This document shows positions 28,613-46,819 of a stretch of 64,000 nt of DNA, piece after piece. The notes below the pieces were generated by a model. That model was given only the letters and a program-made list of their open reading frames with translations. It was not told where the DNA came from and did not search any database. The position numbers and the translations under genes were made by a program. This stretch comes from Pseudovibrio sp. Alg231-02 (GTDB lineage Bacteria; Pseudomonadota; Alphaproteobacteria; Rhizobiales; Stappiaceae). The first letter of the stretch is position 1; each line of letters opens with the position of its first letter. The DNA lies in NCBI RefSeq assembly GCF_900143565.1, contig NZ_FREX01000002.1, forward strand, positions 310,001-374,000. The letters are read 5' to 3'.

Positions 28613-28966
28613 ATGCTGCGCTTCGTAAATCTGTTCTTTATTGTTGCGGTGGTTATTGGTGCTGCGCTCGTTTACGACATCAAGATGTCTAACGAAAACC
28701 TTGCCGATCAGGTGCGTCAGCTTTCTGCTGAGATTGCTAAGGAAAAAGACGATATCCGTTACTACAAAGCCCAGTGGAGTGTGCTTAATCAGCCGGGGCG
28801 TTTGCAGGGTATCGTTGATCGTTACAACGATATTTTGAAGCTTGAGCCACTGCGTGCGGAACAGATCACGACACTGAAGGCGTTGCCGGTTAGACCTGTT
28901 CTGATGGAGCCAGTCTCTGCTGATGCGATGAGCGGTTACGCCAGTCGCGTTACATCCGTACAGTGA
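28613..28966 (+). CDS. ftsL: Cell division protein FtsL
   Basis: A 117-residue bitopic protein: one N-terminal membrane helix (FVNLFFIVAVVIGAALVYDI) and a periplasmic coiled coil (NLADQVRQLSAEIAKEKDDI) ending in a segment with NQPGRLQGIVDR. The family is poorly conserved, so position between rsmH and ftsI supports the call. FtsL works with FtsB and FtsQ to activate FtsWI at the septum. GGAGG lies 7 bases before the ATG and overlaps the rsmH stop codon. Confidence 0.85.
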   Translation: MLRFVNLFFIVAVVIGAALVYDIKMSNENLADQVRQLSAEIAKEKDDIRYYKAQWSVLNQPGRLQGIVDRYNDILKLEPLRAEQITTLKALPVRPVLMEPVSADAMSGYASRVTSVQ

Positions 28967-28977
28967 GGGAGGGGCTC

Positions 28978-30702
28978 GTGGCCAGGAAAGCTGACAGCTC
29001 CTTTTTGCGGCGGTCTAATGTGAACCAAAAGCATGGCACAAGTGCGATCCGGCTTCGTGGTCCGGGACGCTCGCGCATTTTCTTTGCGATGACTATTTTT
29101 GTGTTTGTGTACGGAGCTATTGCCGGTCGTCTGATCCTGCTTGGTTTGCAGGATGGGGACCCTGCTGAGCGGTTCCTTGCTGCACAGAGTTCTGTTGCTC
29201 AGGCGCGCCCTGATATTGTTGACCGCAATGGTGAAATCCTCGCGACCGATATCAAGAGTGCTGCGCTTTATGCTGAGCCGCGCAAGATCCCTGATACAGA
29301 TGAAGTCTTTGACGGGCTGATCTCTGTTTTGCCGGAGCTGGATACGCCATCTATCAAGAAGCGTCTTGAGAGCAATGCGCTGTTTACGTGGCTCAAGCGT
29401 GAGATCTCGGTTGAGCAGCGACAGGCCATTCACGCGCTGGGTTTGCCGGGTGTCGGCTTCCGTGAGAGCAATAAGCGGTTTTATCCAGGTGGTCAGACGG
29501 TCAGTCACATTCTGGGGACTGTGAATGTCGACAACCAGGGCCTCTCTGGTATGGAGAAGTATGTCGATCAGGCGTGGCTGAAGGATCTGCAGGATCTTGG
29601 CTTTACGCAGGATCGGACCATGGAGCCTGTCAAGCTTTCGGTTGATCTGCGGGTTCAGCATGCGGTGCGTGATGAGCTGCGCCGTTCCATGGAATACTAC
29701 AAGGCCAAAGCGGCCATGGGTGTGGTGCTGAAAGCGGACACTGGTGAAGTGATCGCCATGACGTCGCTGCCGGACTTTGATCCAAACAACCGTCAGCAGG
29801 CGCTTGAAAAAGCACGCATGAACCGGGTGACTGGTGGTGTGTTTGAGATGGGCTCCATCTTTAAAGGCATTACCATTGCGATGGCGCTGGATAGCGGCAA
29901 GGTGAAGCTGGAAGACGGCTTTGACGCTACCAAGCCTATCCGTGTTGCAGGTCAGAAGATCGATGACTTCCACGGGAAACGCCGTGTTTTGTCCGTGCCT
30001 GAAGTTTTCATTTACTCCTCCAATATCGGCACCATCAAAGTCATGCAGAAAGCGGGCATTGAGGAGCAAAAGGCGTTCCTGAAGAAGGTTGGCCTGACCC
30101 AGAAAATGACGACCGAGATTCCTGGCGTTGCGCGGCCTCTGCTTCCACCGAAGTGGAATGATCTTGCTGCAATGACGATCTCTTTTGGTCATGGTTTGGG
30201 TGTAACGCCGCTGCAGATGGCTGTTGCGGGTGCAACTCTGGTCAATGGCGGCAAGTATCTTGAACCAACGTTCCTACCTCGCAGTGAGGAAGACGCTGAC
30301 AAGCTTGCTCAACAGGTTCTGAAACCAGAAACCAGCGAGATCCTTCGGTATCTCAACCGTGAAAATGTCCTGCGTGGATCCGGGCGGCGTGCTGCTGTGC
30401 CGGGTTATGATGTTGGCGGTAAGACTGGAACAGCGCAGAAGGTTGTGAATGGCCGTTATGCTGAAGGTGTTTATCTGAACTCCTTTATGTCGGCGTTCCC
30501 GATGTCCAATCCTGAGTATCTCGTTTTGATTGTTTTGGATGAGCCGCAAAAAGTGGAGGGGCAACGTTATTCCACCGCAGGGTGGAATGCTGTGCCAACC
30601 ACTGCATCTGTTATCCGCAGAATTGCACCAATGCTCGGCGTAGTGCCTGATTTCGCAGATGACGCAGAAACAATTCCGGTTTCATATCAGAACCGGAACT
30701 AA
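28978..30702 (+). CDS. ftsI: Peptidoglycan D,D-transpeptidase FtsI (PBP3)
   Basis: About 574 residues. A single N-terminal membrane helix is followed by a PBP dimerisation domain (RPDIVDRNGEILATDI) and the transpeptidase domain with GSIFKG (active Ser in SxxK), YSSNIGT (SxN) and GGKTGTAQK (KTG). It crosslinks septal peptidoglycan as FtsW's partner. The GTG at 28978 is chosen because GGAGGGG lies 5 bases upstream; the frame also has a GTG at 28963 overlapping the ftsL stop. Confidence 0.93.
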   Translation: MARKADSSFLRRSNVNQKHGTSAIRLRGPGRSRIFFAMTIFVFVYGAIAGRLILLGLQDGDPAERFLAAQSSVAQARPDIVDRNGEILATDIKSAALYAEPRKIPDTDEVFDGLISVLPELDTPSIKKRLESNALFTWLKREISVEQRQAIHALGLPGVGFRESNKRFYPGGQTVSHILGTVNVDNQGLSGMEKYVDQAWLKDLQDLGFTQDRTMEPVKLSVDLRVQHAVRDELRRSMEYYKAKAAMGVVLKADTGEVIAMTSLPDFDPNNRQQALEKARMNRVTGGVFEMGSIFKGITIAMALDSGKVKLEDGFDATKPIRVAGQKIDDFHGKRRVLSVPEVFIYSSNIGTIKVMQKAGIEEQKAFLKKVGLTQKMTTEIPGVARPLLPPKWNDLAAMTISFGHGLGVTPLQMAVAGATLVNGGKYLEPTFLPRSEEDADKLAQQVLKPETSEILRYLNRENVLRGSGRRAAVPGYDVGGKTGTAQKVVNGRYAEGVYLNSFMSAFPMSNPEYLVLIVLDEPQKVEGQRYSTAGWNAVPTTASVIRRIAPMLGVVPDFADDAETIPVSYQNRN

Positions 30703-30814: not shown

Positions 30815-33800
30815 ATGTTGCTTAAAGACCTTACAAAACAAGAGATAATCTCCGCCGAGGGCGATGGACCAGACGGGGTTGATACTCTTAATATTTCGGG
30901 GCTTACTGCTGATAGTCGAGCAGTGGAGCCCGGTTTTGTTTTTGCTGCTCTCAAGGGTGCGAAAATTGATGGTGCGAAATTTATCGAGCAGGCCGTAGAC
31001 GCTGGTGCTGCTGCCATTTTGATTGATGCGGATAGAATTTCTGATGATATCCGCAAGCAAGCCAAACAGGTTCCGCTGGTCGCTGCACAAGATGCGCGCC
31101 GGGAGCTTGCTTTGATGGCGGCTGCTTTCTCTGGCAAACAGCCTGAGAAGATGGTCGCTGTTACAGGCACTGCGGGCAAAACGTCTGTTGCTGTTTTCGT
31201 GCGTCAGATCTTTGAATATGCCGGGCTGGTTTCTGCCAGTCTTGGAACCATTGGTACTGTCACATCGACAGGGCAGAGCTATGGCGGCTTGACCACACCT
31301 GACCCTGTGTCTTTGCATGAAGACCTTAAGCGTCTGGCAGAGGATGGGATTACCCATGCGGCCCTGGAGGCGTCCAGTCACGGGTTGGACCAGCATCGTC
31401 TTGATGGTGTGCGCATTGTTGCAGCTGGCTTTACCAACCTTGGCCGAGACCACATGGACTACCACCCAACGGTGGAAGACTACCTTCAGGCAAAATTGCG
31501 TTTGTTCCGCGATCTTTTGCCGGATGATGGTGTGGTTGTTGTTGATCCGGAAACGCAATTTGCTGACCGCGTTCTGGCGATTGCGGAAGAGCGCGGCCTC
31601 AAGACGTTTACGACTGGTGTTTTTGGCGATGATCTGAAAGTGCTTAGCGTTCAGCCGGAAGGGTTCAGTCAGGTTCTTGAGCTGGAAACGGTTGAGGGCG
31701 TGTTTTCTGTCGCCTTGCCGCTGGCAGGTGATTTTCAGGTGAGCAATGCCCTGATTGCTGCGGGGCTGGCTATTTCTGCTGGTGTGGAGCTTCAAACTGT
31801 TCTTGAAGCGCTGACTGTGCTGCGTGGTGCGCCGGGCCGGATTGAGCATGTAGGCACACGTGAAAACGGCGCTCTGGTATTCGTGGATTATGCTCATAAG
31901 CCGGAAGCGCTGGAGAATGTGCTTGCAGCATTACGTCCCTTTGCGGCTGGTCGCCTGATCAGTGTGTTGGGGTGTGGCGGTGATCGTGATGCGGGTAAAC
32001 GTCCGTTAATGGGCGAGATTTCTGCTCGTCTTGCTGATGTTTCCATTGTGACTGATGATAATCCGCGCACGGAAGATCCTGACAAAATTCGTGAGGAGAT
32101 TGTTGCTGCCTGTCCTGCCGCGCTTGAGATTGGAGATCGTGCACTTGCTATTCGCCAGGCGGTGAAGATGCTGCAGGAAGGCGATGTGCTTTGTGTGGCC
32201 GGTAAGGGGCATGAAACAGGGCAGATTGTTGGAACAGAAGTTCTGCCTTTCTCTGACCATGAAGAAATCCAGAAAGCGCTTGCAGAAGCTTCTGCTGAAA
32301 ATGGTGGGTCTCCTGTTGCTGAGAGTGATCTGCCTGAGATCTCTCTTGATCTGGATGAGATGGATCTGCTGGCTGATGAAGGTGATGAGCTGGCAGCTGC
32401 AGACGCGCTGGATGATGATGACCTATTGGCTGCGGTGCAGGCTGGTGTTGAGGAGCTGGAAGCTACTCTGCCGGAAAATCCTGATGATGCGCGTGATCAA
32501 GAGGAAGAAGACTGGCTGGCGCTGGAAGAAGATGTTCTGGGCGCTGATGATCTTGCAGATGCGGAACTGGCTGATGTTGAAAGCCATGATCCTGATTTTG
32601 GCAAGGATGGCTTCCCCAATGTTGCGGAAGATACACCGGATGCACTTGAAGACGAGCTGCTGGGTGATCTAGCGGCTATCGAAGCCGAAGCCGAAGCCGA
32701 AGCCGAAGCCGAAGCCGAAGCCGAAGCCGAAGCCGAAGCCGAAGAGAAGCCTGAAGTCGCGGCAGAGAGTGCTGTTGAGCCGGAAGAGGCGCCAAACGCG
32801 GATGCGGATGCATTTCTTGCGGATGAAGGTCTTGAAGAGGTTGCTCCGGAGGTCACGGAAGATGTATCGCAGTCCACTCAACCCGATGAGCAGGACGGCA
32901 CAGAAGCAATAGGTGGGTTACCTGCTTCTGAGGAACCTACTGAGACGGCTGAGACTGCTGCTTTTGAGCGTAAAACCGAAGAAAAACCAAAGCTCAAGTC
33001 AGCGATAGACAAGCCTGAGTGGACTATCGTCCCCCATATCAACCTATTGGACCCGGACATTAAGTCGGAATATGAGCGGCAAATGATTGAACTGCCTGAA
33101 ATAGACCGTGGGCCGCTGTGGCTGCTTAACGATTTTCTGGAGGCAGTAGATGGGGATGTTCACGGTGATCTGAGTGATGACATAACCGGAATCTCCATTG
33201 ATAGCCGGGTGATCCAGCCCGGTGAAGCCTTCTTCGCGATTAAGGGCGAGAACTTTGACGGTCATGCGTTCGCGGGAACAGCTGTTGAGGCTGGTGCTGC
33301 TGTGGCTGTTGTTGCGCGTGACAAGCTTGCTGAGCTGCCGGAAGGTGGCCGCTATGTGGCTGTTGATGATGTGCTTCAAGCGTTGGAGCGCCTTGGTGTG
33401 GTTGCTCGCGCGCGCTCGAAAGCTCGGATCATCGCGGTTACTGGTTCTGTTGGAAAAACAGGCACGAAAGAAGCTTTGCGTCTCTGCCTGTCAAAGTCCG
33501 GTATCACCCATGCACCTGTGGCGAGCTTCAACAACCATTGGGGTGTGCCGCTGACATTGGCGCGTATGCATGCTGATACTGAGTTTGGCATCTTTGAGAT
33601 TGGTATGAACCATCGCGGTGAGATCACGCCACTGGTGAAAATGGTTCGTCCGCATGTGGCAATCGTGACCACTGTGGAGCCTGTGCATCTGGAAGCCTTT
33701 AACTCCGTTGAAGATATCGCGCGTGCGAAGGCTGAGATCTTCACTGGCATCGAAAAGGGTGGTGTGGCGATCCTGAACCGGGATAACCGACAGTATGATT

Positions 33801-34534
33801 TGCTTCGCTATCTGGCAGCTGTGGCCGGAGTACGGAACATTGTCAGCTTTGGTATGCAGCCGGGTGCTCAGTCCATTGCCAAAAAAGTGGCTGCAAACCC
33901 AGATTGTTCTTGCCTGAATGCCAATATTCTTGGGCAGGAAATCTCCTACAAGATCGGCGCTCCAGGCGCACACCATGTGATCAACTCACTGGGCGTGCTG
34001 ACCGGGGTTATGGAGCTGGGGGCCAATCTTGCGTTTGCTGGTCTGGCCCTTGCAGAAATGTCTGCGCCGAAAGGGCGTGGTGCGCAGACCGTTCTTGATG
34101 TGAATGGTGGCACGGCGTTGCTTGTTGACGAGAGCTATAATGCCAATCCGGCGAGTATGCGGGCTGCGATCAATCTGGTGGCTGGTTTGCCCGTTGCGAA
34201 GAATGGCCGTCGCATCGCCGTATTGGGAGATATGCTCGAATTAGGTGCAGATTCCGACAAGTTGCACGCAGACCTTGCGCGTGAACTGGAGCGCGCAAAG
34301 ATCGACGTGGTTTATTGTGTGGGTACTCACATGAAGGTGCTCTGGGACCTGTTGCCTGCACAGACCAGAGGCGCCTATTCAGAGACCTCCGACAAACTGG
34401 AAAAAGACCTGTTGTCGGAAGTGCGTCCCAACGACATCGTGATGGTAAAGGGCTCCCTTGGAACCCGTATGGGTCCACTTGTGGATGCCTTGAAGAAACG
34501 TTTTCCTGAACCGGCTGCAACCGGTAAGTCCTGA
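30815..34534 (+). CDS. murE-murF: MurE-MurF fusion with long acidic linker
   Basis: One 1239-residue frame holds two peptidoglycan precursor ligases. Residues 1 to ~480 are MurE: ATP loop GTAGKT (~117), YLQAKLRLF with the carbamylated Lys, and DNPRTEDP (~414), the motif linked to meso-diaminopimelate. Residues ~768-1239 are MurF: SIDSRVIQPGEAFFAIKGENFDGH, GSVGKTGTKEAL (~876), NNHWGVPLTLAR and DESYNANPASM. Together they would add meso-DAP and then D-Ala-D-Ala to UDP-MurNAc-dipeptide. Between them lie ~280 residues rich in Asp, Glu and Ala, including ten EA pairs encoded by GAAGCC repeats. The linker's length and charge are unusual. Confidence 0.92.
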   Translation: MLLKDLTKQEIISAEGDGPDGVDTLNISGLTADSRAVEPGFVFAALKGAKIDGAKFIEQAVDAGAAAILIDADRISDDIRKQAKQVPLVAAQDARRELALMAAAFSGKQPEKMVAVTGTAGKTSVAVFVRQIFEYAGLVSASLGTIGTVTSTGQSYGGLTTPDPVSLHEDLKRLAEDGITHAALEASSHGLDQHRLDGVRIVAAGFTNLGRDHMDYHPTVEDYLQAKLRLFRDLLPDDGVVVVDPETQFADRVLAIAEERGLKTFTTGVFGDDLKVLSVQPEGFSQVLELETVEGVFSVALPLAGDFQVSNALIAAGLAISAGVELQTVLEALTVLRGAPGRIEHVGTRENGALVFVDYAHKPEALENVLAALRPFAAGRLISVLGCGGDRDAGKRPLMGEISARLADVSIVTDDNPRTEDPDKIREEIVAACPAALEIGDRALAIRQAVKMLQEGDVLCVAGKGHETGQIVGTEVLPFSDHEEIQKALAEASAENGGSPVAESDLPEISLDLDEMDLLADEGDELAAADALDDDDLLAAVQAGVEELEATLPENPDDARDQEEEDWLALEEDVLGADDLADAELADVESHDPDFGKDGFPNVAEDTPDALEDELLGDLAAIEAEAEAEAEAEAEAEAEAEAEEKPEVAAESAVEPEEAPNADADAFLADEGLEEVAPEVTEDVSQSTQPDEQDGTEAIGGLPASEEPTETAETAAFERKTEEKPKLKSAIDKPEWTIVPHINLLDPDIKSEYERQMIELPEIDRGPLWLLNDFLEAVDGDVHGDLSDDITGISIDSRVIQPGEAFFAIKGENFDGHAFAGTAVEAGAAVAVVARDKLAELPEGGRYVAVDDVLQALERLGVVARARSKARIIAVTGSVGKTGTKEALRLCLSKSGITHAPVASFNNHWGVPLTLARMHADTEFGIFEIGMNHRGEITPLVKMVRPHVAIVTTVEPVHLEAFNSVEDIARAKAEIFTGIEKGGVAILNRDNRQYDLLRYLAAVAGVRNIVSFGMQPGAQSIAKKVAANPDCSCLNANILGQEISYKIGAPGAHHVINSLGVLTGVMELGANLAFAGLALAEMSAPKGRGAQTVLDVNGGTALLVDESYNANPASMRAAINLVAGLPVAKNGRRIAVLGDMLELGADSDKLHADLARELERAKIDVVYCVGTHMKVLWDLLPAQTRGAYSETSDKLEKDLLSEVRPNDIVMVKGSLGTRMGPLVDALKKRFPEPAATGKS
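32681..32740 (+). repeat. Ten tandem GAAGCC hexamers in the murE-murF linker
   Basis: Ten perfect GAAGCC units encode ten Glu-Ala pairs, followed by GAAGAG. Slippage by whole units keeps frame, so the linker length may vary between strains without breaking the gene. Confidence 0.95.
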
Positions 34535-34544
34535 GGTTGACTAA

Positions 34545-35639
34545 ATGCTATATTTGCTGGCGGAGCTTTCAGAGGTTTATCCTTCCCTGTCTGCGCTGAA
34601 TGTTTTTAAATACATTACGTTCCGTACCGGCGGCGCGATTATGACTGCTTTGTTGTTTGTGTTCCTGTTTGGCCCGCGCATCATTGATGCATTGCGTTCG
34701 CGTCAGGGTCACGGACAGCCAATTCGTGAAGACGGGCCTGCGAGCCATCTGCTGACAAAAAAGGGTACGCCTACCATGGGCGGCCTGATGATCCTTTCCG
34801 GGATGATTGTTGCGACGCTGTTGTGGGCTGACCTTCGCAATCCCTATACCTGGATCGTTCTGGGTGTGACTGTCGGTTTTGGCCTCATTGGTTTTTATGA
34901 TGACTATCTGAAAGTCACCAAGTCTTCGCACAAAGGCTTTGGCGGTAAAGCACGCTTGGGTCTTGAGTTCCTGATTGCGGGTCTTGCGGCTTTTGCGGTG
35001 ACGCTTCTGGATGCCGAGCCATTTTCCACCAGTATCGGTTTTCCGTTCTTTAAAGAGCTGACGCTGAACCTAGGTCTGTTCTTCATCCCATTCGCTGCCT
35101 TTGTTGTTGTTGGCGCGGGCAATGCGGTGAACCTGACTGATGGTCTGGACGGTCTTGCGATTGTGCCGGTGATGATTGCTGCTGCCGCGTTTGGTCTGGT
35201 CGCATACCTGACTGGTAATGCTGTGTTCTCCAGCTATCTACAGATCCACCATGTGGCGGGCACTGGTGAGCTTGCTGTTGTGTGTGGTGCGGTGATTGGG
35301 GCTGGTCTTGGGTTCTTATGGTTCAACGCTCCACCTGCTGCGATCTTTATGGGTGATACAGGTTCTCTGGCTCTGGGCGGTATGCTGGGCGCGATTGCTG
35401 TTGCGACCAAGCACGAGATTGTTCTGGCGATCATCGGCGGTCTGTTTGTGCTGGAAGCGGTTTCAGTGATTGTGCAGGTGGCGTCGTTCAAGCTGACTGG
35501 CAAGCGTGTGTTCCGCATGGCGCCAATTCACCACCACTTTGAGCATCTGGGCTGGACTGAGAGTCAGGTGGTTATTCGTTTCTGGATCATTGCTGTTGTG
35601 CTGGCCCTTGTTGGTCTTGCCACACTGAAACTGCGTTAG
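34545..35639 (+). CDS. mraY: Phospho-N-acetylmuramoyl-pentapeptide transferase
   Basis: A 364-residue protein with about ten membrane segments. [42 protein letters not shown] and [12 protein letters not shown] carry the Mg2+-binding aspartates, and [13 protein letters not shown] the HHH motif. MraY moves phospho-MurNAc-pentapeptide onto undecaprenyl phosphate, making lipid I at the inner membrane. Length matches the family. It follows murEF by 10 bases. Confidence 0.95.
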
Positions 35640-35651
35640 GAGGTTCGACAC

Positions 35652-37052
35652 ATGATCCCTATCCGTCATCTTGCAGGCAAAGAAGTCGCGTTGTTCGGGC
35701 TCGGAGGGTCCGGGCTCGTGACTGCGCGTGCGCTTGAGGCTGGTGGGGCTCGCGTTGATGTGTGGGACGATAATGAGGCCAGCGTCGCGACGGCTGAAGA
35801 ATACGAGCTTGCTGCGATTGATCTGCGTGAGGCGGATATGTCCCGCTACGCAGCGCTGGTTGTTGCTCCGGGTGTTCCGCTGACGCATCCGACGCCGCAC
35901 TGGAGTGTGGAGCGGGCGAGACAAGCTGGTATTCCGGTGATTGGGGATGTGGAGCTTTTCGTGAATGAGCGGGAAGCGGTTTGTCCGGAGGCACCGTTTG
36001 TTGCCATCACTGGCACCAACGGCAAATCCACCACGACTGCTCTGATTTCGCATGTGCTTAAAGAATGCGGCATGGATGTTCAGATGGGGGGCAATATTGG
36101 CCGTCCGGTTCTGGACCTTGAAGAGTTTTCCGAGGATCGCGTCTATGTGGTTGAGGTCTCCTCCTACCAGATCGATCTTGCCCCAAGTCTTGTGCCGGAT
36201 ATCGGCGTGATGATGAATCTGTCGCCGGACCATCTGGACCGGCATGGGAGCATGGAGAATTACGCTTCCATCAAAGAGCGGATTGTTAAAGCGGCGCGTT
36301 TGGCTGTTGTCGGCGTGGACGATGAGTACAGCGCTGCCATTGCACAGCGCCGGGCGGAAAGCGGTGAGCCGGTTGAGCTGATCTCCTGTCTGGGGCCTGT
36401 CGAGTTTGGCGTTTATGCTGAAGACGGTAAGGTCTTTGAGGTTTTTGATGAAGAGCAGGTGGTTGTGGCTGACCTGTCCTCCTCCAACACTTTGCGTGGT
36501 TCTCACAACGGGCAGAATGCCTCTGCTGCTGTTGCGGTTTGTGCAGCGCTTGGGCTGGAGCTTGACGAGATTGCGGGGGCGCTTGCGACCTTCCCGGGTC
36601 TTGCGCATCGTTTGATGCTGGTTGCTGAAGCAGGCAAGGTTTTGTTTGTGAATGACAGTAAGGCAACCAATGCGGAAGCTGCTGCCCATGGGTTGGCGGC
36701 GTTTGACCGGATTTACTGGATTGCTGGTGGTCGTCCCAAAGCGGGCGGGATCTCTTCGCTTAAAGCCTACTTCCCGAAAGTCGTGAAGGCTTATCTGATT
36801 GGGGAAGCGGCGGAAGAGTTTGAGCAAGAGCTTGCCGGGGGTGTTGAGGCGCATAAGTTTGGCTCTCTGGAACTGGCTGTTGAAGCGGCGGCACAAGATG
36901 CTGCGCGGGATCAGAGCAGTGAGGCGGTGGTTTTGCTGTCTCCGGCCTGTGCCTCGTTTGACCAGTTCAAGAGCTTTGAAGTTCGCGGGGATGCATTTGT
37001 GAGCGCGGCTGTTGCTGCTGCCAAAATGCTGAAGGGTGAGGGAGCACGCTGA
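35652..37052 (+). CDS. murD: UDP-N-acetylmuramoylalanine--D-glutamate ligase
   Basis: A 466-residue Mur ligase. The N-terminal Rossmann-like domain starts with VALFGLGGSGLVTARAL; ITGTNGKSTTTALISHVL is the ATP loop, VVEVSSYQIDL the MurD-type central motif, and LSPDHLDRHGSMENYASIK includes the carbamylated Lys; NDSKATN and LLSPACASFDQF lie in the C-terminal domain. It adds D-glutamate to UDP-MurNAc-L-Ala. AGGAGG lies 8 bases before the ATG. It overlaps ftsW by one base. Confidence 0.95.
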   Translation: MIPIRHLAGKEVALFGLGGSGLVTARALEAGGARVDVWDDNEASVATAEEYELAAIDLREADMSRYAALVVAPGVPLTHPTPHWSVERARQAGIPVIGDVELFVNEREAVCPEAPFVAITGTNGKSTTTALISHVLKECGMDVQMGGNIGRPVLDLEEFSEDRVYVVEVSSYQIDLAPSLVPDIGVMMNLSPDHLDRHGSMENYASIKERIVKAARLAVVGVDDEYSAAIAQRRAESGEPVELISCLGPVEFGVYAEDGKVFEVFDEEQVVVADLSSSNTLRGSHNGQNASAAVAVCAALGLELDEIAGALATFPGLAHRLMLVAEAGKVLFVNDSKATNAEAAAHGLAAFDRIYWIAGGRPKAGGISSLKAYFPKVVKAYLIGEAAEEFEQELAGGVEAHKFGSLELAVEAAAQDAARDQSSEAVVLLSPACASFDQFKSFEVRGDAFVSAAVAAAKMLKGEGAR

Positions 37053-41800: not shown

Positions 41801-42724
41801 ATGACCAAGCATGTTGCAGTTTTGATGGGTGGATGGGTTGCTGAGCGACCTGTTTCTCTGTCTTCAGGCAAAGACTGTGCGGACGCTCTGGAAGCGGCTG
41901 GTTATCAGATCACGCGTGTGGATGTTGACCGCAACATTTCTGCTGTGCTTCAGGAGCTGAAACCGGACGTGGCATTCAATGCGCTGCATGGGCCGTTTGG
42001 TGAAGACGGAGCTATTCAGGGTATTCTGGAAGTGCTCGATATTCCCTACACCCATTCCGGAGTGATGTCGTCTGCGCTTGCCATGCATAAGGAAAAGGCG
42101 AAGGCCGTGATGAAGGCTGCCGGTGTTCCGGTTGCCAATGCCATTGTGGCCAGCCGCGCTGATGCTGCGCGCCGTCATGTGATGGAACCGCCTTATGTGA
42201 TCAAACCAATCAACGAAGGATCGTCCTTTGGTGTGCTGATTGTGAAGGAGGGGCAAGAGCATCCTCCGCAGGAATTGACACGCGAAGATTGGCAGTATGG
42301 TGATTTGCTCATGGTCGAGCGTTACATCCCAGGCCGTGAATTGACGTGCGCGGTGATGGGTGATGTGGCGTTAGGGGTACTAGAAATTGTACCGCTGGGT
42401 CACACTTATTACGATTATGATGCAAAATACGTCCCAGGCGGTTCACAACACATACTTCCTGCGGAAATTTTACCATCTGTTTACCAAGAAATACAAAAAT
42501 CAAGTCTCAAGGCACATCAGGCTCTGGGGTGTCGCGGCGTTACACGCGCCGACTTCCGTTTTAACGAAGGACCCGGTGGCCTAGGAGAACTGATTTGTCT
42601 TGAGGTGAACACTCAACCCGGCATGACGCCAACATCACTGCTCCCGGAAATCGCGGCACACGCCGGACATGATTTTCAAGAATTGGTGAGTTGGATCGTG
42701 GAGGACGCAAGTTGCGGAAGATAA
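41801..42724 (+). CDS. ddl: D-alanine--D-alanine ligase
   Basis: About 307 residues with an ATP-grasp fold. [15 protein letters not shown] is the alphaproteobacterial form of the N-terminal motif, [22 protein letters not shown] the next conserved block, and [19 protein letters not shown] the C-terminal metal-binding motif. It makes the D-Ala-D-Ala dipeptide that the MurF domain adds. Oddly, codons from about 42370 to 42530 shift to TTA, CTA, GTA, ATA, TCA and CAA, rare in the flanking parts. It overlaps ftsQ. Confidence 0.94.
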
Positions 42725-43626
42725 AGGCAAAATTTGATGCATTGCGGGAACGCACAGGCATCTGGAGCTATCGCTTCAGAAGTCGTGGCGTATCGCGTTT
42801 GCACCAGAGACCCGCTTGGGGGGTCACTGGATTTTTTGCACTTATCCCATCCTGGGCACCAACTGCGGGCGCTTTTGGCTTCCTTGCATTGTCCGCTGCT
42901 TATGGCATTACGCTGGGTGGACACGCCCGTAATGTAAGCGAATCAGTTACATCCTCCGTCGGTTTCGCGGTGAATGAGATCAAAATGGAAGGTTTGCAGC
43001 GTGTTACCGAGTTTCAGGTGCTGGAAGCGCTTGAACTTCACGAACGTCCTTCTTTGATGTTGTTTGATGCGGCTGACGCGAAAGAGCGTCTGGAAGGTAT
43101 TGCCTGGATCCGGAATGCGGCAATCCAGAAGTTCTACCCCGGTACGCTGCGTGTGATGATCAAAGAGCAAGAGCCTTATGCGCTCTGGCAGCGTGGGGAC
43201 ATTACGTCTGTCATCACCAAAAAAGGCGAGGTCATCACCGATGAGGTGGATGGCCGTTATGCGAACTTGCTTCGCGTGGTCAATCACGGTGCGCAGCTGC
43301 GTGCTGGTGAGATTATGAGCGAGCTGGACAATTTCCCAGGTATCCGTGCCCGGGTGCGCGCTGCAAAGCTGCGCTCCGAACGACGCTGGGATCTTGCCCT
43401 GGAAAACGGAATTACAGTGCGTCTGCCAGAATTTGATGTTGGCGATGCACTGGCGGAACTTAAGAAGCTGGATGATCAAGGTGGTTTGCTCTCCCGCGAT
43501 ATCGTCGCGGTGGACCTGCGTTTGCAGGATCGCGTTGTGGTGCGTCTTTCGGATGACGCCGCCATTCGCCGCAAAACCACCATCGAGCAACGAGGTACGC
43601 CCTCCAACTCCGGGAGGGACACATGA
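42712..43626 (+). CDS. ftsQ: Cell division protein FtsQ
   Basis: About 304 residues. A basic N-terminus is followed by one membrane helix ([20 protein letters not shown] region), then a POTRA domain ([19 protein letters not shown]) and the FtsQ beta domain ([24 protein letters not shown]). FtsQ scaffolds FtsL/FtsB in the periplasm. The start is probably TTG at 42712, because GGAGGA lies 6 bases upstream, inside the end of ddl; a TTG at 42691 has no such site. It overlaps ftsA by 4 bases. Confidence 0.88.
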
Positions 43627-45031: not shown

Positions 45032-45059
45032 TGTTATTAGGGTCGCGAGGTTAATATGA
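44985..45059 (+). CDS. Possible 24-residue upstream ORF coupled to ftsZ
   Basis: A frame opens at ATG 44985 ([17 protein letters not shown]) with an internal GTG at 45015 that has AGAGGA 8 bases upstream. It ends in TGA overlapping the ftsZ ATG as ATGA, the junction type seen throughout this operon. It also spans the second hairpin of the spacer. It may be a leader peptide or chance; no family is recognised. Confidence 0.3.
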
Positions 45060-46819
45060 CAATCAACCTGAAAATGCCTGATATTCAGGAATTGAAGCCC
45101 AGGATCACCGTATTCGGTGTTGGTGGCGGTGGCGGAAACGCCGTAAATAACATGGTAACGAGCGGTCTTCAGGGCTGTGACTTTGTTGTTGCAAACACGG
45201 ATGCGCAAGCATTGGCACTTTGCCAGGCTGAGCGTGTTATCCAGATGGGCGTTGCTGTTACGGAAGGCTTGGGCGCTGGTTCCCAGCCTGAAGTTGGTGC
45301 AGCTGCTGCAGAAGAAGTTATTGACGAGATCAACGATCACCTGTCCGGCTCGCATATGGTGTTTATCACCGCGGGTATGGGTGGTGGCACCGGTACCGGT
45401 GCTGCGCCAGTTGTTGCTCGAGCTGCGCGTGAACAAGGTATACTGACCGTCGGTGTGGTTACCAAACCCTTCCAGTTTGAAGGGTCCAGACGTATGCGTG
45501 TTGCCGAAGCCGGCATCGAAGAGTTACAGCGTAATGTTGATACTCTTATTGTTATTCCAAACCAGAATCTGTTCCGCATTGCGAATGCACAGACCACCTT
45601 TGCCGATGCCTTCTCCATGGCTGACCAGGTGCTGTATTCTGGTGTAGCGAACGTCACTGACTTGATGGTCAAAGAAGGTCTCATCAACCTCGACTTTGCT
45701 GATGTACGCTCCATAATGCGTGGCATGGGTAAAGCGATGATGGGTACCGGTGAAGCATCCGGCGAACAGCGTGCCATCCAGGCGGCTGAAGCTGCGATTG
45801 CGAACCCGCTGCTTGACGAGACTTCCATGAAGGGCGCGCGCGGTCTGCTTATCTCCATCACTGGTGGTAACGACCTGACGCTGTTTGAAGTTGATGAAGC
45901 TGCAACTCGTATCCGCGAGGAAGTAGACCCAGAAGCGAACATCATTCTTGGTGCAACCTTCGATGAATCTCTGGACGGTATTATCCGCGTTTCTGTTGTT
46001 GCCACCGGCATCGACAAAGAGCTGCGTGAAGATATCTCTCCTGCAGAGGTTCGTATGGCTGAACTCACAGAGCGTCTGCAGAGCGCTACTACGCCTACGC
46101 CCAGTCCAGCGGTAGCTGCGCCGGTAGAAGTAGCTCCTGCACCCACCCCAGTTCGTGCGATGCGCGCGATGGGCTCCGCAGCAGCCGAAACACTTATGCA
46201 CTCTGAGCCGGTTGCTGTTGCAACTGACCCGGAAGTGGAAATTTCTCCTTATCAGTCTCGTCGTTATGAGCCTGTGCAGGAATATGATGCACTTGAGGAA
46301 CCAACACAGGCTTTTGATGAGCCTACCAATATTCCTGAGCCATTTATTCCACCTGTTGCACAAAAGGTAGAGCCTCAGACACGTATGCCACGTGTTGAAG
46401 ACTTTCCGCCAATTGCACAGCGTGAAATTCGTGCGCGCACGGATGCTCCTGCTGCAGCGCCTGCACCACAGCCGGCATCTGCAACTCCTCAGCCAGCACC
46501 AGCCACTATGGCCCAGCAGGTTGAAGAGCATGATGAGCATCATTTGGAAGAAGAGCGTCGCCCAATGGGTCTTCTGCGCCGTTTGACTGGTGGTCTTGGC
46601 CGCCGTGAAGACGAGCACATGGAGCACCATGAGCCAGTACAGGCAGATGCGTTTGCTGAGGCTCCACGCCAGCCAGCAGCGCCTCGTCCAACCGAGCCTC
46701 AGAATCACGGTGCAGCCGGGACTCTGGACGCTGGTGGACGCCCTGCGCCTGCACGCTCACAAATGATCGAAGATGATCAGTTGGAAATCCCGGCGTTCCT
46801 GCGCCGCCAAGCCACCTGA
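45056..46819 (+). CDS. ftsZ: Cell division GTPase FtsZ with long C-terminal linker
   Basis: A 587-residue tubulin homolog. [15 protein letters not shown] starts the GTPase domain, [16 protein letters not shown] is the tubulin signature, and [11 protein letters not shown] the catalytic T7 loop. The conserved core ends near residue 320; about 250 residues of Pro/Ala/Glu-rich disordered linker follow, and [10 protein letters not shown] at the end binds FtsA and other partners. Long linkers are usual in alphaproteobacteria. GAGG lies 5 bases before the ATG. A strong terminator follows. Confidence 0.96.

Follow-up and report, generated by a model that had tools for sequence, protein, structure and literature searches.

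Why do some bacteria hold the ligases MurE and MurF together in one chain by a long acidic linker? The question is raised by the locus murEF of Pseudovibrio sp. Alg231-02, at 30815-34534 of the window, which is the whole analyzed stretch of 64,000 nucleotides (contig NZ_FREX01000002.1, positions 310,001-374,000; GCF_900143565.1). Like all the features below, murEF lies on the forward strand. It is one uninterrupted open frame of 1239 amino acids (aa) from ATG to stop in the order MurE-linker-MurF, and its translated product has a calculated mass of 131.2 kDa and an isoelectric point of 4.4. The MurE-MurF fusion of Pseudovibrio is already in print, and its long, variable and acidic linker is new.

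An earlier model-made reading from the letters alone, here the sequence-only reading, had proposed this single frame with the motifs DNPR and GSVGKTGTKE, and the frame and both motifs are confirmed. The MurE part (residues 1-490, 30815-32284) scores 705.4 bits with PRK00139.1-2 (cut-off 476; main stretch residues 19-493) and 523.4 bits with TIGR01085 (cut-off 257.3; residues 26-489). The MurF part (residues 767-1239, 33113-34531) scores 729.6 bits with PRK14093 (cut-off 544; residues 766-1235) and 501 bits with TIGR01143 (cut-off 288.6; residues 795-1226), all of these being whole-protein scores.

The MurE motifs are the P-loop GTAGKTS, the carbamylated lysine K227, DNPR as the meso-diaminopimelate motif and GKGHE. 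All of them are matched in the alignment to solved MurE and, except for the A of GTAGKTS, are invariant across 16 aligned sequences. The MurF motifs, the GKT P-loop within GSVGKTGTKE, NNHWGVPLT, AKAEIF and DESYNANP, are also present with most positions invariant in 16 aligned sequences. By the curated models and the alignment to solved structures, both halves are complete Mur ligases.

The best sequence match in PDB is 8f5d_A, titled 'Multifunctional fusion protein', which aligns to the MurE part with 295 bits over the main stretch and also to residues 27-323 of the MurF query with 166 bits. The equivalog of bifunctional MurE/MurF, NF008896 (PRK11929), gives 853.1 bits, below its cut-off of 1023. 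At E up to 0.001, a genome search found no second copy of murE or murF, the sole further match being MurC. As predicted from sequence, murEF is a bifunctional MurE/MurF in the wide sense, with two complete ligases in one frame and no separate copies.

Between the ligases lies the linker of 276 aa (residues 491-766, 32285-33112), with 34% aspartate plus glutamate (D+E), 4% lysine plus arginine (K+R) and a net charge of -82. Residues 485-765 had been described as almost entirely Asp, Glu, Ala and Leu. The long acidic stretch is there, with 94 D/E and 13 K/R among 281 residues, but the four residues together make up 61%, so 'almost entirely' is too strong. Of all 100-aa stretches in the window's open frames of at least 120 codons, the most acidic by a wide margin lies in it, with a charge excess of 40 and the next at 16. 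A search at E up to 10 found no other protein resembling the linker in the genome.

The first and most acidic section (residues 491-630, 32285-32704; D+E 37%, K+R 1%) contains LDLDEMDLL, DDDDLL and EDELL. A hexanucleotide tandem repeat of about 12.8 copies (32680-32756) codes for Glu-Ala repeats and overlaps the least conserved block, residues 631-650. The section adjoining MurF (residues 731-766, 33005-33112) is non-repetitive and not of the low-complexity acidic kind (D+E 25%, K+R 11%). In the window's subclade, two conserved sections (511-630 and 731-766) thus flank a variable repeat-bearing middle.

The AlphaFold model is confident up to about residue 497 in MurE and again from about residue 764 in MurF. 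The predicted local distance difference test is mostly below 50 across the linker, with some weak helices predicted. From this low-confidence fold, the high net charge and a composition kept better than the sequence, the linker is predicted to be of the intrinsically disordered acidic type.

The fusion recurs in the family Stappiaceae, for which we sampled 87 genomes of Pseudovibrio and six other genera, coded g2-g7 (genomes and fetched loci are coded G and L). MurF is part of a long open frame (982-1660 aa) in 15 of 16 Pseudovibrio, 3 of 3 g3 and 13 of 14 g7 genomes. The two exceptions, G005 (Pseudovibrio) and G077, have loci cut by contig ends and were excluded from the linker counts. In the 54 genomes of g2, g4, g5 and g6, the MurF frame is 348-637 aa. 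The fetched loci comprise 31 fusions, and separate genes in g2, g4, g5 and g6 (3, 5, 1 and 11 loci). The fusion, as far as the open frames tell, marks three genera in the family, Pseudovibrio, g3 and g7.

Among the best 80 of 593 matching loci, six from Pseudovibrio are fused, and the 74 others (Roseibium, Rhizobium and other Hyphomicrobiales) have two frames. The named relatives at these loci are P. ascidiaceicola, P. japonicus, P. flavus and P. exalbescens. An apparent FtsI fusion in G096, with an open frame of 1637 aa, was rejected; its first ~680 residues are arginine-rich and look off-frame and a MurE-like start comes next, no family search having been made on this frame. In G045 (L166), the murF matches are split over two frames (348 and 259 aa) by a frameshift or an assembly error.

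A sequencing error hiding a stop, the artifact that the sequence-only reading had named in advance, is rejected by the same open frame in 31 loci. Such an error is very unlikely, as 14 further Pseudovibrio genomes have the fused frame intact. All 31 linkers have D+E of 23-40% and K+R of at most 6.5%, with no cysteine among 8274 residues. Read off-frame, they contain 43-617 stops in each of the five other frames, and none in frame. The acidic open linker is more than chance.

One continuous frame could still give two proteins, either by internal initiation or by proteolysis of the linker. Nine subclade linkers have an in-frame ATG 10 codons before MurF, and disordered linkers are easily cut. 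However, this ATG lacks a Shine-Dalgarno-like match, and the other six complete Pseudovibrio loci, g3 and g7 do not have it at that position. At three of the 31 loci (G015, G075 and G086), the 60 codons nearest to MurF contain a start codon that has such a match. No sigma-70-like promoter was found at 32200-33200. Two separate products are quite improbable, and murEF would yield a single product in the cell.

The closest described system is MurE-MurF of Bordetella pertussis, which has the same ligase order in one chain. Its linker is only about 20 aa in a total of 945, as compared with the acidic 276 aa in 1239 of murEF, and the long, probably disordered linker is indeed unlike that join, as had been claimed (PMC6420597). 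The Bordetella protein is elongated and flexible and binds MurG, and its two activities are independent with no coupled rate gain (PMC6420597). The introduction and results of the same paper give Pseudovibrio MurE and MurF as one polypeptide; this is the very same fusion, and its linker is not described in the available part of that paper.

Other precursor-enzyme fusions, MurB-MurC, MurG-MurC, MurC-Ddl and MraY-MurG, are alike in kind and differ in their partners (PMC6420597). Searches of an open-licence library, judged by titles, abstract openings and, for PMC6420597, passages, gave no description of the long acidic linker, of its length series or of the wider spread in the order.

The linker length varies widely. 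The 31 intact family loci have linkers of 22-697 aa, 30 of them at least 122 aa, and the ranges are 22-697 aa in Pseudovibrio, 197-262 aa in g3 and 198-385 aa in g7. Local alignments of 14 representative linkers were scored with composition control. Between deep lineages, the z-score is below 3.0 in 71 of 80 pairs and 3.0-5.9 in nine, several of which are between repeat-rich linkers. Within lineages it is higher, reaching 9.8 in g7 and 50 in the window's subclade (G000 with G011).

Tandem Repeats Finder reported 49 rows in the linkers, partly overlapping rather than 49 independent arrays, and all 49 have a period divisible by 3. Most of the repeats code for EA, EP, DA or acidic pentapeptides. 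The longest frame, 1660 aa in G004 (L112, on a 4.6 Mb contig), has two hexamer runs, one coding for Glu-Pro with about 14 copies and one coding for Glu-Ala with about 94. The assembly of G005 breaks within the murEF linker (L113 end and L114 start), probably at a Glu-Ala repeat. Short-read assemblies may understate the length of linkers by collapsing their repeats.

By a simple NG86 (Nei and Gojobori) count over 15 pairs from six close Pseudovibrio genomes, the ratio of nonsynonymous to synonymous changes (dN/dS) is 0.10-0.35 for the whole linker versus 0.03-0.09 in the two enzymes. These values are well below 1, so the linker appears to be translated and constrained, though less than the enzymes, and is by this measure under purifying selection. 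That bears on whether the linker is tolerated as a by-product, namely as a tract prone to slippage that grows without function and is bounded only by solubility and frame. Hexamer and 15-base repeats are common in many linkers, conservation is lowest in the repeat block and the lengths are so diverse, all as expected of such a tract. Nevertheless, the low dN/dS extends over the whole linker, the acidic bias is found in 31 of 31, and 11 fusions of other families are short and mostly non-acidic. We regard the by-product as improbable.

The best reading, which we consider somewhat probable, is a covalent 1:1 tether with an acidic disordered spacer that is kept for its composition more than for its exact length. 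In the ancestor, murE and murF would have shared an ATGA overlap, and their translation was probably coupled. An indel that shifted the frame within the tail of murE would have fused the two, and the 1:1 synthesis would then have been enforced covalently. Tandem duplications and slippage that preserved the frame could have lengthened the join into an extended, negative and disordered spacer, while selection would keep it acidic, disordered and in frame with its length only loosely constrained. It would most likely serve as a soluble and self-repelling tether on which two bulky, moving ligases work independently.

The tether had also been proposed to channel UDP-MurNAc-tripeptide from MurE to MurF. 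The two reactions are consecutive in one chain, and the fusion recurs in several families, as channelling would suit. A generic polymer estimate with commonly used constants puts the local concentration at 12.6, 0.13 and 0.025 mM for linkers of 22, 276 and 697 aa, a drop of about 95-fold from 22 to 276 aa. As a longer linker lowers the local concentration, lengthening would be counter-productive if proximity were the point. The Bordetella coupled assay showed no gain, and this together with the dilution by a long chain favors 1:1 expression plus a spacer. Channelling finds no support, is very improbable and would be absent here.

Several findings weigh against a mere spacer of free length. In nine related linkers, the mean identity is 77-84% over residues 511-630 and 92-95% over 731-766, more than a spacer needs. 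Linkers of 197-385 aa account for 26 of the 31, so the length is not free, and, with 22 aa sufficing in one Pseudovibrio species, not every species needs a long spacer. Moreover, [DE][DE]LL-like motifs occur 22 times in 14 representatives versus 6.8 ± 2.4 in shuffled linkers, with 0 of 500 shuffles as high. The hydrophobic spacing i,i+3,i+7 is weakly enriched at 39 versus 27.6 ± 5.0, with 9 of 500 shuffles as high.

The motifs were counted in representatives picked by hand, after collapsing dipeptide repeats, and the seven patterns were selected after viewing the linkers; a count over all 31 is inflated by relatedness. The i,i+3,i+4 spacing and neighboring hydrophobic pairs show no enrichment, nor does [LI][DE][LI][DE] in the non-redundant set.

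Recruitment via such acidic-hydrophobic motifs is the main rival. The motifs and the section before MurF would form an arm that binds a partner, such as MurG, the MraY loops or a division or polar-growth protein, and holds the ligases near the membrane. The motif enrichment extends to 10 of the 14 representatives, blocks are conserved within the Pseudovibrio subclade, and Bordetella MurE-MurF binds MurG (PMC6420597). But that binding occurs with a linker of about 20 aa and one linker here has 22 aa, while the motif is missing in four of the 14 and its pattern was picked post hoc.

Among nine proteins of the division and cell wall (dcw) cluster compared without correction for phylogeny, MurG, MraY, FtsW and FtsA show no clear positive shift in the fused genera, only FtsQ being more positive, and MurC and MraY are slightly lower in charge. 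A recruiting arm is possible but unlikely, and the tether with an acidic spacer remains our preferred reading; the rivals and this reading are not all mutually exclusive.

The starting state of the join can be read from the unfused relatives. In 18 of 20 unfused family loci, the murF ATG and the murE stop share the 4-base overlap ATGA, the exceptions being G017 (a TTG/ATG start) and G045 (murF in two pieces). Of the 28 unfused loci from other families, 23 have an ATG at the same 4-base spot. The overlap kept in 18 of 20 relatives suggests that the covalent join probably replaced the translational coupling of overlapping murE and murF.

Whether the join arose once or twice was approached by a species tree of eight neighboring proteins from the same gene cluster. 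The tree covers 11 of the 45 genomes of g6 and every genome of the remaining six genera, and its outgroup is 5 loci taken from the best 80 of 593. Pseudovibrio groups with the unfused g4-g6 at 98% in the Shimodaira-Hasegawa-like approximate likelihood ratio test (SH-aLRT), and g3 plus g7 fall outside. With the ancestral-looking overlap in g4-g6, this tree favors two fusions. Against them, the approximately unbiased (AU) test does not reject one origin (p 0.075), and the tree of MurE plus MurF leaves the three-way split open.

A bolder combination is that this essential enzyme pair fused twice independently within the family, in Pseudovibrio and in g3 plus g7, and that both gained a long acidic disordered arm. 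Selection would act on the charge of the arm and on acidic-hydrophobic motifs recruiting a cell-wall partner specific to the family, and repeat slippage that preserves the frame would tune its length. We hold this to be doubtful.

The sequence-only reading had placed such fusions in a few lineages such as Bordetella. In the order sample, 146 of 160 genomes gave a MurF match (E up to 1e-60). All 20 order loci outside the family with an open frame of at least 857 aa were fetched, and 11 are true fusions; the other nine, first taken as fusions, were rejected as two separate genes each. The fusions belong to families coded f11 (4 of 4 sampled), f41 (4 of 4), f18 (2 of 5) and f42 (1 of 4), at L220, L221, L223, L224, L227, L228 and L231-L235. 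With four f1 genomes, they make 15 of 146, where the unfetched genomes are classed by frame length alone and contig ends may hide a few fusions.

These 11 are true single-frame fusions like murEF with linkers of 7-24 aa, mostly non-acidic. D+E is 0-16% in nine, and 29% and 43% in two 7-aa linkers, and several linkers are basic. The class sample of 230 genomes adds five fusions (G313, G429, G330, G440 and G346), in which about 5-8 aa join the two ligases. Six of ten fetched candidates there are single-frame fusions, including G166 which was already counted, and four are separate genes; the counts cover the fetched rows, with further candidates such as G446 left out. Three phylum-level candidates (L270-L272), checked among 11 newly fetched loci, were rejected as their genes are separate. 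Long-linker fusions with lower single-domain scores can escape the searches at class and phylum level, whose E cut-offs were 1e-190 and 1e-200.

By these open frames, the fusion is recurrent, while the long acidic linker is found only in the Stappiaceae among the samples. The fusion is more widespread in the order than the few lineages given in PMC6420597, and the 4-base overlap is its likely starting state. The natural length series of 22-697 aa in one enzyme pair of one family lets the role of the linker be tested for channelling, stoichiometry, solubility and recruitment.

At L263, L266-L268 and L270-L272, the separate genes murE and murF share one reading frame, and just one stop codon stands between their open frames. 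Losing that stop would fuse such a pair in one step. Because stops are read through in the search, these loci are over-represented.

The gene order around murEF is otherwise ordinary for the dcw cluster. An FtsI/PBP2-type transpeptidase gene of the dcw order, for which the best models score below their own cut-offs, lies upstream at 28963-30702, and mraY, identified by family search, starts 10 bases past murEF (34545-35639). It is followed by murD, ftsW, murG, murC, murB and ddl, with families identified up to ddl, and then by what we take from position and sequence to be ftsQ, ftsA and ftsZ.

MurD (35652-37052) is unusually acidic in Pseudovibrio, with a mean net charge of -28 versus -6 to -13.5 in the other family genera. 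FtsQ (42691-43626) is more positive in the fused than in the unfused genera, at 6.3 versus -0.1 without correction for phylogeny. The frame of 592 aa at 45041-46819, presumably FtsZ-like, has an Ala/Pro-rich C-terminal part of about 265 aa that is far less acidic than the murEF linker.

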